Assembly (NCBI GenBank): GCA_021163245.1
Contig: JAGGXB010000127.1
Coordinates: 1-37,247 of the forward strand
Source of the DNA: Thermoproteales archaeon
GTDB lineage: Archaea; Thermoproteota; Thermoprotei; Thermofilales; Thermofilaceae
DNA: 37,247 nt
Reading direction: 5' to 3'
Numbering within the stretch: the first letter of the stretch is position 1; each line of letters starts with the position of its first letter. Below, one piece after another: positions 13,103 to 17,046 of this stretch. The position numbers and the translations under genes are program-made. The notes under the pieces are model-generated. The model had not been told where the DNA came from. It did not search any database and saw only the letters and a program-made list of their open reading frames with translations.

Positions 13103-13333
13103 ATGGATCCAACATTATCAAGAATCGCGTTTACGATAGCTATGACTTTCTTAATATTGGCTATCTATTCTCTGATATTAATCGATCCCAATTCTCCTGA
13201 ATTCATAATTGATGTAATATCAATAATCATTTTGACTGTATTCATACTTGTTGTTCTTTGGGAAACAAAAAGGGAGTTGTCATCATATGAAAAAGAATTA
13301 GAATCGCTTGAGAAAGAATCACAGAAAAGTTAA
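13103..13333 (+). CDS. Small membrane protein, unknown function
   Basis: A 76-residue protein with two hydrophobic helices (about 8-27 and 34-53) followed by a charged, coiled-coil-prone tail (ELSSYEKELESLEKESQKS) likely in the cytoplasm. I do not recognise a family. The start is ATG at 13103; TTTATATTAT at 13071-13080 is a TATA-like box about 27 nt upstream, so a leaderless transcript is likely. It shares a TTAA stop with the convergent CARF regulator gene. Lack of homology leaves some doubt, but codon use and neat boundaries favour a real gene. Confidence 0.6.
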   Translation: MDPTLSRIAFTIAMTFLILAIYSLILIDPNSPEFIIDVISIIILTVFILVVLWETKRELSSYEKELESLEKESQKS

Positions 13334-14154
13334 AATCCAATTGGTTGCGGTAATTTTATCTTTCTCTCAATCTCGGAAACTTTTCTTTTAATTTCCTCTA
13401 TTCTTCTCGTTGCTTCAACATATGCCTTTCCGAACTCTGTTAATAGAACTCTTCTATTTTTCCCCCGATACTCTCTTTGAACAAAACCTTTACTCTCAAG
13501 CTCAGAAATCCATCTACTGTATTGAGCCTTATTGATTGCAGTTATCTCTTCACCCGACCATCTAATTATGGTCTTTATACTGTCCGCTTTTCCACCTTTA
13601 TCATACAGAAGTTTCAGTATCCTGATTTTCTCATAATCTTTATTAGGATCAAGTATTTCCTTACGATTATTAGGTAGTCCAACACCAAGTAACTCTAATG
13701 CTCTTTTATTATCTTTTCGTGTAACCCATTCCTCGAAATCTATAGTGTCAGGTTCAGGAATAAAATCTCCCCTATTTTCCGACTGGACACTATAAATTTT
13801 AGCATTTTTAAACTGTGTAACTACGACTGTCACAGCTGAGGCCATTATCGATGGCATATCTGTAATGTCAACTAACACTTCTTTTCCTCTTTCCATCTCA
13901 AACTTGATAATCGAATAAACCCTACTATAAACACTTTTAAAAGATAAAGGATTAACCGGTAGAACAATTGGTTTAAAAAATGAGAGAACACCCTTTAAAC
14001 GTCTTACATTGTATTTTGATACATATCCGTATTTATCTTGTTTGCCGTCATACAATAAATATACACGTTCGACAGGGTAAGCTAGCCTAATCTTTTCAAA
14101 ACCATCATATATTAATGTTGGATGAAACGAAACGTAGTGAAGTGTTACGACCAT
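13330..14154 (-). CDS. CARF-domain winged-helix transcriptional regulator (DUF6293/Csa3-like)
   Basis: A 274-residue two-domain protein. Residues 1-125 look like a Rossmann-type CARF sensor: strand plus HPTLIYDGFEK, VERVYLLYDGK at 28-38, and a second conserved turn VDITDMPSIMASAV at 95-108, which is where CARF domains contact cyclic nucleotides. Residues 172-245 form a winged helix-turn-helix (KIRILKLLYDKGG, YSRWISELESKGFVQRE, RVLLTEFGKAYV), and 246-266 a basic helix. Relatives include Csa3 and the DUF6293 regulators, some of them CRISPR-linked. No cas genes or repeats are present here. It is divergent from nurA-herA, and dyad-symmetric motifs lie between. Ligand and targets are unknown. Confidence 0.75.
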   Translation of the reverse strand: MVVTLHYVSFHPTLIYDGFEKIRLAYPVERVYLLYDGKQDKYGYVSKYNVRRLKGVLSFFKPIVLPVNPLSFKSVYSRVYSIIKFEMERGKEVLVDITDMPSIMASAVTVVVTQFKNAKIYSVQSENRGDFIPEPDTIDFEEWVTRKDNKRALELLGVGLPNNRKEILDPNKDYEKIRILKLLYDKGGKADSIKTIIRWSGEEITAINKAQYSRWISELESKGFVQREYRGKNRRVLLTEFGKAYVEATRRIEEIKRKVSEIERKIKLPQPIGF

Positions 14155-14248
14155 TCCTTTGAACCCATATAGTACGTATGTATTATCTCAGTAATATAAT
14201 CGTCATAACTAGTATATATAAGTAGTGTACAATAACAACTGAACTTCA

Positions 14249-14272
14249 ATGGTAACAAAAAATTGCTACCAT
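14249..14272. promoter_or_regulatory. Operator-like dyad 1
   Basis: Half-site ATGGTAACAA is followed by four A and then TTGCTACCAT, an inverted copy with a single mismatch in ten positions. The centre is about 106 nt from the regulator start and 160 nt from the nurA start. It shares the core GTARCAA / TTGYTAC with dyad 2. Confidence 0.6.
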
Positions 14273-14293
14273 GTTCTCCTAAAAAGAGGTAAT

Positions 14294-14328
14294 ACAGTAG
14301 CAAAATATTGTTACTGTTATAACAATAT
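14294..14328. promoter_or_regulatory. Operator-like dyads 2 and 3 (overlapping)
   Basis: Dyad 2 (14294-14317) has arms ACAGTAGCAA and TTGTTACTGT around a 4-bp spacer, again one mismatch in ten. Its right arm is reused in dyad 3 (14305-14328), where ATATTGTTA and TAACAATAT form a perfect 9-bp inverted repeat around 6 bp. Dyads 1 and 2 are centred 45 bp apart. A further half-site ATAACAA is at 14232-14238. The likely binder is the adjacent CARF-wHTH protein; this is inference. Confidence 0.6.
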
Positions 14329-14419
14329 CATATCCTTAACAAAAATGTGTTTTGTAAAATTTTTATGTTATTAAGACTACTTTTTTAAGACTTACAATAT
14401 ATAGTATATATCGATTATA

Positions 14420-15457
14420 ATGACAGAAAGCATATTACTTGGATTCCGTAGATCTGATATAGCTTTGATATTTGATAAATTAAGGAAAATCTATGTCGAT
14501 AATAGAAGAATTATACAGTATACTTTGGAAGGCTATCCCATCTTGAATCCATATCCTGTGCTAAAAATAAAGAATAAGGAGGTAAAGGGAGTTGTTATAC
14601 AACGAGAATATTTTAGGTATCTAAATGAAATACCACATAATAAAAAAATATTAAGTGTAGATGCCAGCATAAAAGTTCTCTTTAATCTTGGTACTATGCG
14701 GATAGTCGAGGCCAAAGTTGCAGCAGGTGTTTGGCAAGGTTTAAATAAAGCTAAAATCAGAGGCCCAATAAAAAGATTGACTATAATAGAAAAAAAGGAA
14801 GAAGCGGCAGAATGGCTTATGAGAATAGAGTTCGAAGAAATTATGAAACTCTCATATCTCATTTCTCCTGGAGATATAGTTATATTAGATCGTAGCCTTT
14901 CGATACCTCCACTTTTAAAAAAATCGACTAGGAATCTAGTAGAAACCTTGGATAAAATTGTTTCGTCGAAAGGTGGAATATTAGTGGGTTTAACAAAAAG
15001 TAGTAAACTTTCATTGAATACTGGAGAAAGTGTTATAGGCTATTTAATAAATCTAGGTGAAAAAATTTACCGAGGTTTACCTTGGTTTTATCACCCACTT
15101 TTCAGAGAAGATTCCTTACCAAAATGGTTCCTGGGAGATATAGTGGTTGCGAAACTTTCTGAACTAGGTGAAAATGCTTTTAGAATAGACATATCAAGAA
15201 AGTCATTAAAAAGATATTCCATAGAGGAAATACTTGGAAAATTGTCTTTCGTCCAAGATATAGCTATACCAGGTTATCCATATCCCTTAAAAGCTGTTCA
15301 TGAGTTAGCAAAAATAAGTGACAATGAACTTGAAGTTGACAAAATGCTTTTTCTAGACATTTTAAAGGATAAAAGTTTTGAAAATGATTTTCTCTCAGAT
15401 TTAAAATCTGCCAATTTCAGAGAAAGATATCTTTGGGGTGATAACATATCAGGCTAG
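14420..15457 (+). CDS. nurA: NurA 5'-3' nuclease (DNA end resection)
   Basis: A 345-residue NurA-domain nuclease, the partner of HerA in archaeal double-strand break resection with Mre11-Rad50. Catalytic landmarks: D81 in LSVDAS, acidic cluster E138-E140, D157 in VILDRS, and the C-terminal PYPLKAVHELAKI block with Y288 and H294. GLTKSSKLS (190-198) matches the family's G-x-x-K-x-S turn. Length is normal. The ATG start seems leaderless. The last codons contain the SD for herA (GGTGAT at 15437-15442), and the two genes overlap. mre11 and rad50, often in the same operon in archaea, are absent here. Confidence 0.88.
   Translation: MTESILLGFRRSDIALIFDKLRKIYVDNRRIIQYTLEGYPILNPYPVLKIKNKEVKGVVIQREYFRYLNEIPHNKKILSVDASIKVLFNLGTMRIVEAKVAAGVWQGLNKAKIRGPIKRLTIIEKKEEAAEWLMRIEFEEIMKLSYLISPGDIVILDRSLSIPPLLKKSTRNLVETLDKIVSSKGGILVGLTKSSKLSLNTGESVIGYLINLGEKIYRGLPWFYHPLFREDSLPKWFLGDIVVAKLSELGENAFRIDISRKSLKRYSIEEILGKLSFVQDIAIPGYPYPLKAVHELAKISDNELEVDKMLFLDILKDKSFENDFLSDLKSANFRERYLWGDNISG
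15436..15442 (+). promoter_or_regulatory. Shine-Dalgarno motif deciding the herA start
   Basis: GGGTGAT inside the end of nurA is a strong match to the archaeal anti-SD. The codon 6 nt after GGTGA in the herA frame is ATC (15448), and it stands just where the conserved HerA N-terminus begins. No ATG, GTG or TTG lies in this frame between the upstream stop (15442) and 15598. Confidence 0.55.
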
Positions 15458-17046
15458 GAACAGTTGTATGGGTCGAAGGCACAACCGTCAAATTTAGAAT
15501 TAATGAAAATATTCTAGTTGAAAGAGGAGAACTTGTCAAGGTAGAGGATAAAGGACAGAGATTCATCTTAAGAGTATTTGATTTCAAGCCAGAATCCTTG
15601 TTAACACCAGCAGAGATAGCAATGGTAAGTAAAAAGGTTGAAAATGGGGAGAATCCCGCATTATATGATAAAGGTTTACGATTATATGACACAGCTCTTT
15701 CGACTATAATTGCTCAAATAGATAAGAATGGGAATGTACATGGTCCGACAGCTGTACCCTCAATATTTAGTAGTGTTGAATCTTTAGAAAAAAGGGATTT
15801 AGAACTCTTACATCTTGACACAGGCGATATTTCTATAGGATATGTTAGAGTAGGCCATAAAAGTTCTGATATAATAGTTACTTTAAATGGAGAAAAAACA
15901 ATACCGCATCATATCTTAGTTTGTGGTGTTACAGGAGCTGGAAAAAGCAATTTGGGAAAAGTATTTGCGGCATCGATAATGTCTTTGAACAACAAGAAAT
16001 ATAGTCTTATATTATTCGACTGTGAGAGCGAATATCTAAAAGGTGGAGGTCCTGGACAACTTGGATTAGCTCATTTGCCTCAATCAGAAGACAGGTTGCT
16101 TTATGTGACAAGTCTAATCGATAAACCATCCCGTATAACTATGAATCTTAGGATTGACGGATTCTCAGTAAAAAGAAGTATTCAAACTTTTCCATTAAGA
16201 GTCAGTATATACAGATTAGTTCCAAGTGATTTCACAATGACAGGAGAATTTACCGGACCACAGGAAGAACTATTATGGATGGTATATAACCTGTTTCGAG
16301 AAAAATGGATCGATATTTTGCTCTCTATGGATACGAAAAATCTTTATCGGAGACTCAATAGACTAACTTCGGTTACTACCCTAAATGTTACTAAAAGAAA
16401 GATAAAGCATATGCTCGGTAACGGAGATATATTTGTGAATGAAGACAATGATTTTTTCAAGAGTATATTAAGTGCTGTATCAAAAGGTATGGTTATTCTT
16501 ATAGATACACCCTTTGCAACAGAGGGTGAAGAAAAACTGTTGTCTGTAGCAATAGCAAGAAGAATATTTAACATGTACGAAAAAATGCGCAAGGAATTTC
16601 CCGAAAAATGGGAACAATTACCATATGTTTTGATAATGGTTGAAGAAGCACATAGATATTTAGCAAGACAAAGTTTAACTGCAGGCGGAGAAGTACGAGA
16701 AAATATCTTTTCTATAATAAGCAAGAGAGGTAGAAAGTACAGGGTAGGTGGACTTTATATAACTCAAATGCCAGGAGAACTAATGGAAACTGTCATTAGA
16801 CAAACACTCACCAAAATTATATTGCCTCTACCAACTAAGCCTGATTACTTAAAAGTAATACAATATAGTCCTTATCTGGACGAGGCAGAACAAGAAATAA
16901 AAACGTTAGATCGCGGTGAAGCATTGGTTGTTTCACCACCATCTGGGATTAGGTTTGCTGTACCAGTGAAGATATTCTCATATGAAGAGTTAGTAGAGGA
17001 GTTAATCGAGAAAAATAAAGTATCGCAGACTAATGTTTACTCATAG
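15448..17046 (+). CDS. herA: HerA bipolar DNA helicase/translocase
   Basis: HerA is a hexameric FtsK-like ATPase that drives NurA in DNA end resection. From the ATC at 15448 the protein is 532 residues: a HAS-barrel (IRLGTVVWVEGTTVKFRI onward, 1-60), Walker A GVTGAGKS at 160-167, Walker B LIMVEEAH, a sensor/arginine-finger region SKRGRKYRVGG, and TQMPGEL. The first canonical start is TTG at 15598 (LTPAEIAMV), which would drop 50 residues, including most of the HAS-barrel that binds NurA. The open frame, homology and SD spacing favour initiation at ATC or a sequence error here. It overlaps nurA by 10 nt and the convergent PaaK-like gene by 17 nt. Confidence 0.85.
   Translation: MRLGTVVWVEGTTVKFRINENILVERGELVKVEDKGQRFILRVFDFKPESLLTPAEIAMVSKKVENGENPALYDKGLRLYDTALSTIIAQIDKNGNVHGPTAVPSIFSSVESLEKRDLELLHLDTGDISIGYVRVGHKSSDIIVTLNGEKTIPHHILVCGVTGAGKSNLGKVFAASIMSLNNKKYSLILFDCESEYLKGGGPGQLGLAHLPQSEDRLLYVTSLIDKPSRITMNLRIDGFSVKRSIQTFPLRVSIYRLVPSDFTMTGEFTGPQEELLWMVYNLFREKWIDILLSMDTKNLYRRLNRLTSVTTLNVTKRKIKHMLGNGDIFVNEDNDFFKSILSAVSKGMVILIDTPFATEGEEKLLSVAIARRIFNMYEKMRKEFPEKWEQLPYVLIMVEEAHRYLARQSLTAGGEVRENIFSIISKRGRKYRVGGLYITQMPGELMETVIRQTLTKIILPLPTKPDYLKVIQYSPYLDEAEQEIKTLDRGEALVVSPPSGIRFAVPVKIFSYEELVEELIEKNKVSQTNVYS

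Follow-up and report, generated by a model that had tools for sequence, protein, structure and literature searches.

A putative CARF-type switch divergent from an accessory NurA-HerA pair in a Thermofilaceae archaeon

The stretch of DNA analysed here (the window) comprises 37,247 nucleotides from a Thermoproteales archaeon of the family Thermofilaceae (assembly GCA_021163245.1, contig JAGGXB010000127.1). It encodes a CARF-winged helix-turn-helix (wHTH) protein transcribed away from a nurA-herA pair, named here nurA2-herA2. This protein is likely a dedicated switch of the CARF3 type that controls the accessory nurA2-herA2 pair through two DNA dyads, with a ligand that is probably not cyclic tetra-adenylate (cA4) made by Cas10. 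Sequence evidence covers the domains, the conservation of both pairing and dyads, the status of the pair as paralogs, the intactness of the nuclease residues and the independence of Cas10.

The regulator and its linkage to nurA2-herA2

The three open reading frames (ORFs), their divergent arrangement and the 265-bp gap between the regulator gene and nurA2 were confirmed as described in the first-pass annotation, which had also proposed a CARF-like domain joined to a winged helix. The C-terminal part of the regulator matches the winged helix family DUF6293_C (PF22665; 32.8 bits, cut-off 27), and its N-terminal domain scores 27.6 bits with HFX_2341_N (PF19810; cut-off 30). Among 20 homologues, 19 match the former model and 13 the latter (E up to 0.1). 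The best PADLOC model is CARF3 (6.4e-17). An AlphaFold2 model made from 20 homologues has a mean predicted local distance difference test score of 90.9, and Foldseek analysis of this model gave Csa3 (2wte, 6wxq) as the best PDB matches, followed by Csm6 and ring nucleases (best E 1.7e-8). Together, these profile and fold matches identify residues 1-125 as a CARF domain and the C-terminal part as a MarR-like winged helix, in agreement with the earlier proposal. The DxT motif in the beta4 loop of the Rossmann-like CARF fold is present; its residues D96 and T98 are invariant in 20 sequences, as are N49, S46, N68 and Y32. The scores for Csa3 itself (TIGR01884, 23.4 bits against a curated cut-off of 60.2) and for the HFX_2341 equivalog of NCBIfam (15.7 against 500 bits) are below the cut-offs, so that by the curated model the regulator is not Csa3.

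A first scan of the genome contigs with the single protein as query gave no match; 25 carriers of the regulator were identified among the 61 genomes searched at class level. In all 24 class-level loci inspected the regulator is divergent from nurA-herA, with approximately 27-53% identity to the window protein. Across the phylum it is carried by 36 of 398 genomes, including Thermofilum sp. NZ13, Thermofilales archaeon RSNS8 and Thermoprotei metagenome-assembled genomes. A further 13 loci (L081 and twelve outside the class) were inspected, seven with the divergent arrangement and six without it. The pairing, first observed in the window alone, therefore holds in 31 of 37 inspected homologous loci from at least 14 families of the phylum. 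A regulator standing beside unrelated genes and without dyads, named beforehand as an observation that would count against the link, was encountered in the remaining six (four in f44, one in f53, one in f64). The genomes of these six contain no HerA2 orthologue at all (best E 1.6e-14, compared with <1e-150 in carriers), so that these loci speak for a functional link and not against it. Within the order, the genomes searched that lack the regulator also lack HerA2, except G023, in which the contig ends just upstream of nurA.

In f44 (L106:9031-10714, L107:9262-10887), the regulator homologue lies directly upstream, on the same strand, of a nicotinamide adenine dinucleotide (NAD) synthetase-like gene, with no nurA-herA nearby and no dyads. 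In f53 and f64 (L109:5766-7324, L115:2433-5958) the divergent neighbour is a glutaredoxin-like gene, after which comes an NrdD-like gene for an anaerobic ribonucleotide reductase. This context is a hint that the CARF family may be connected with the nucleotide pool. These gene names are a reading of the translations, and two of the four f44 loci were read in detail.

Flanking genes vary between genomes, so that the regulator, nurA and herA form the unit. The sampled flanks are mixed and mostly housekeeping, with no cas family among them, and a defence-island context was rejected. One relative has a Piwi-domain protein gene two genes away from the module (L029:5823-7211).

The same genome possesses a separate nurA-herA-mre11-rad50 operon on contig C80. 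In maximum-likelihood trees, 28 regulator-linked HerAs form one group (support 100/99) and 29 regulator-linked NurAs another (100/100), both separate from the canonical and other copies that were sampled. By these trees, the window pair belongs to a monophyletic clade of paralogs of its own, which occurs with this regulator alone save for the contig-edge case of G023. The C80 operon and the trees reject the reading of the window pair as the housekeeping resection pair, and the proposal of a switch for DNA end resection has to be amended accordingly. With a paralog clade in place of the mre11-rad50-linked pair, an end-resection switch is only one of several possible functions, nuclease defence being another. 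The NurA-HerA pairs sampled in the same-class genomes G042 and G050 fall outside the window clade, and orthology with them was also rejected. Three genomes (G010, G003 and G006; loci L091, L084 and L085) have a third nurA-herA pair, outside both the mre11-rad50-linked and the regulator-linked clades. In NurA2 the catalytic acidic residues D81, E137 and D157, together with K193 and H294, are kept in 33 of 33 sequences. HerA2 aligns through its ATPase motifs with solved HerA hexamers (structures 4d2i and 9x1l were matched). This separate NurA-HerA clade, with a putative control of its own, is to be kept apart from the housekeeping resection pair in genome annotation.

Dyads in the divergent gap

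Both principal dyads marked by the first-pass annotation, with 45 bp between their centres, were recovered, and they are the only matches to GTARCAA-N2-8-TTGYTAC across the 1.95-Mb assembly (Table 1). Of the half-site first proposed, GTARCAA/TTGYTAC, the conserved part is GTAWC, the inner AA/TT being mere AT-richness; the conserved consensus is GTAWC-N8-GWTAC, 18 bp in length. The third dyad that had been proposed exists as an inverted repeat, reuses the right half-site of dyad 2 and is not conserved in the relatives. Around the lone half-site noted near 14232, next to the regulator TATA box, the sequence is conserved in part.

The relaxed dyad GTADC-N8-GHTAC was found 28 times in the 31 paired gaps, compared with 0.093 expected from dinucleotide shuffles (maximum of 2 in 1000 rounds), and a chance origin is rejected; 28 is a count of sites, in which close relatives are not independent events. 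At least one dyad is present in 15 of these gaps and at least two in 11. When the spacer of GTADC-Nk-GHTAC was varied from 0 to 20, hits were obtained at k=8 (28 times), k=9 (seven times) and k=19 (once), and at no other length. No dyad of the GTADC-N8-GHTAC type occurs in the six gaps where the regulator stands without nurA-herA. In a 10-row DNA alignment of gaps (mean identity 57%), positions of the G-T-A-x-C and G-x-x-A-C types are retained in both dyads, as is the regulator TATA box. The dyads are a phylogenetic footprint.

In most exact pairs the starts of the two dyads are separated by 44-46 bp; the separation is 35 bp in L051 and approximately 75 bp in f8 and f11 loci with a spacer of 9. 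These few cases suggest steps of about 10 bp, as if helical phase were kept. The spacer of 9 rather than 8 characterizes L045, L046, L047 and L048 (f8, f11), and six of the seven spacer-9 dyads are in loci of these two families, where regulator and operator geometry seem to have evolved together. In the in-order relatives keeping both dyads exactly, their distance to the regulator start is nearly constant and that to nurA more variable. The gaps of L029 (10023-10280), L033 and L043 possess an extra site of the GTAAC-N8-GCTAC type near the regulator start codon, probably in the regulator leader; this site is degenerate in the window.

Both dyads are upstream of both presumed TATA boxes, a placement that would be easier to reconcile with activation, or with a shared complex that binds cooperatively, than with simple occlusion. 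In some relatives, half-sites also occur beside the regulator's own TATA box and near its start, which would fit autorepression, and the regulator is probably autoregulated. A wider regulon was sought and rejected: the relaxed dyad has nine sites genome-wide, compared with ten for a reversed control, and no further target was found. One perfect palindrome elsewhere (on C92) was checked and lies inside an ORF.

Table 1. Features of the regulator-nurA2-herA2 locus (window positions unless given as residues)
Feature	Position	Strand	Basis or remark
CARF-wHTH regulator, 274 aa	13330..14154	-	Open reading frame; PF22665 over cut-off, PF19810 just under
Regulator domains	Residues: CARF ~1-125; linker ~126-172; MarR-like winged helix ~173-248; then C-terminal helix		
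NurA paralog (NurA2)	14420..15457	+	PF09376 over cut-off
HerA paralog (HerA2)	15508..17046	+	PF01935; start near 15508 by homology
Putative operator dyad 1, GTAACAAAAAATTGCTAC	14252..14269	.	Conserved dyad; extended palindrome 14249-14272
Putative operator dyad 2, GTAGCAAAATATTGTTAC	14297..14314	.	Centre 45 bp from dyad 1; extended palindrome 14294-14317
Overlapping inverted repeat (third dyad of the first-pass annotation)	14305..14328	.	Not conserved in relatives
Predicted regulator TATA box	14213..14220	-	TATATAT columns (nearly) invariant in 10 diverged gaps; putative promoter role
Candidate nurA TATA region, ACTTTTTTAAG	14379..14389	+	Partly conserved in gap alignment; putative

The herA2 frame is open further upstream than its mechanical start call, TTG 15598.

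Ligand, Cas10 and competing explanations

It has been described that Csa3 binds cA4 through motif 1 (Phi-G-F-N/D) and motif 2 (G-Phi-R) (PMC8844856). In the alignment of 20 sequences motif 1 is mostly kept (YVGFHPT, VGFH), the window protein having VSFH, in which S replaces G. For motif 2, DxT is invariant, but in the order a conserved DMPP (TDMPP/TDMPS) takes the place of Gly and Arg/Lys, the matching to Csa3 residues being read from the alignment, without structural superposition. A Lys is kept at the motif 2 position in an f11 homologue (L045) and one f8 genome (L046), with TSTTK and TSASK. The loss of the phosphate-contacting Gly and Arg/Lys favours another ligand, or none, over cA4. Of the nucleotide signal proposed by the first-pass annotation, the CARF fold is upheld, whereas one half of the Csa3 cA4 pocket (motif 2) is altered.

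Nearly all that is known of CARF domains concerns their reading of cyclic oligoadenylates made by Cas10. The search for type III cas genes showed that Cas10 (PF22335) was not found in this genome nor, in all, in eight of the 15 carriers that are at least 90% complete; a second Cas10 model found none in the same eight genomes, while two positive controls were found. As these eight assemblies are 93-98% complete, a single absence is weak evidence, but eight together are not. The genome has a cas1 of its own on another contig (C107), and Cas1 was also not found in two of the eight Cas10-less carriers (G011, G022). The suggestion that this could be a non-CRISPR use of CARF is supported as far as type III CRISPR is concerned. 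With Cas10 absent and motif 2 replaced, an oligoadenylate made by type III systems is an unlikely general ligand.

The favoured model is a three-gene accessory module consisting of the regulator and the divergent nuclease-translocase pair. The regulator, presumably a CARF-mediated dimer like Csa3, would bind the two 18-bp dyads, which lie between both promoters at a fixed distance of 45 bp from each other, and from that position would control its own transcription and that of nurA2-herA2. Dyad occupancy or geometry would change when the CARF pocket takes up a small ligand, most likely a nucleotide-like one other than the cA4 made by Cas10. NurA2-HerA2 would act next, degrading or resecting DNA in the course of repair or as a defence against invading DNA. 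The inferred parts of this model are the binding of a dimer to the dyads, the choice between activation and repression, the nature of the ligand and the function of the module. Three observations weigh against it: many relatives (e.g. L031, L032, L035-L037, L039, L052, L103-L105, L113 and L081) have only degenerate dyads; the in vitro DNA binding of Csa3a was non-specific although its palindrome is conserved (PMC8699464); and the ligand pocket could be vestigial, as the window clade has lost the cA4-contacting residues. A broader interpretation is offered tentatively, namely a nuclease module under CARF control that stands alone, needs neither CRISPR nor Cas10, and responds to a new nucleotide signal (for example damage, the deoxynucleotide pool or the product of a non-Cas10 cyclase) by switching on a second NurA-HerA for repair or antiviral DNA destruction.

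The altered motif 2 is also what would be expected of a ligand-free autorepressor, in which the CARF domain is a dimerization scaffold only and the regulator's own gene and nurA2-herA2 are held at a set level. The half-sites beside the regulator TATA box, and near its start in several relatives, agree with such a role, but the many invariant CARF residues listed above seem to exceed the needs of a scaffold, and this explanation is considered unlikely. Somewhat less credible is an output of type III CRISPR, by which the regulator would bind cA4 or another cyclic oligoadenylate like Csa3 and induce nurA2-herA2 as an antiviral arm. The fold nearest to Csa3, the largely kept motif 1, a Lys at the Arg98 position in some distant homologues (f11, G027) and the action of Csa3a/b on nurA-herA in Sulfolobus (PMC7480081, PMC12977600) are in its favour; opposed to these are the missing Cas10, with G011 and G022 also without Cas1, and the TDMPP found in the order instead of Gly-x-Arg/Lys. 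The near-constant distance from dyad 1 to the regulator start, compared with the more variable one to nurA, would be explained if dyads and adjacency were independent, the dyads serving another factor or autoregulation alone and nurA2-herA2 being uncontrolled. This, too, is improbable given that the six unpaired regulator genes have no upstream dyads and that the regulator and HerA2 are gained and lost together. For the favoured switch, a conserved CARF regulator and a conserved operator in Cas10-less genomes make CARF sensing outside CRISPR directly testable on one promoter.

Comparison with known systems

As a principle, CARF control of nurA-herA has a precedent in Csa3a and Csa3b of Sulfolobus. 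Overexpression of Csa3b raises nurA-rad50-mre11-herA 2.4-3.0 fold (PMC7480081), and Csa3a is reported, in work cited by PMC12977600, to bind nurA/herA promoters. The Csa3a palindrome TCCC-N8-GGGA lies 12 bp upstream of the transcription factor B recognition element and TATA box (PMC8699464). The CARF-wHTH architecture and fold are common to the window regulator and the Csa3a/Csa3b proteins of Sulfolobales, which are reported to act on nurA-herA-mre11-rad50 (PMC8699464, PMC7480081, PMC12977600), and the 18-bp palindrome of Csa3a with its 8-bp spacer has the same dyad geometry. In contrast to Csa3, the window regulator is outside a cas locus, its half-site is GTAWC rather than TCCC, cA4 motif 2 is unconserved, and its putative target is a local, dedicated paralog pair and not the mre11-rad50 operon. 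A NurA-HerA paralog pair is likewise tied to a CARF protein in the CRISPR-linked nurA-csm6-herA clusters of Pyrobaculum (PMC3396285), but there the CARF gene (annotated csm6) is inside the cluster near CRISPR arrays, whereas in the window it is a divergent regulator. The literature searched, whose partial coverage makes a prior mention of the exact linkage possible, contained no account of a NurA-HerA paralog with its own CARF regulator transcribed divergently from it.

Another close family is HFX_2341/DUF6293 (PF19810 and PF22665; CARF3 of PADLOC), to which both domains show a match, the C-terminal model being over its cut-off and the N-terminal one slightly below; no target or ligand of this family was found in the literature searched. 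HerA-based defence systems such as HerA-Sir2 and HerA-DUF4297 also pair a HerA hexamer motor with an effector enzyme. The window module differs from these in having NurA as the partner, a dedicated CARF regulator and sampled flanks without a defence island.

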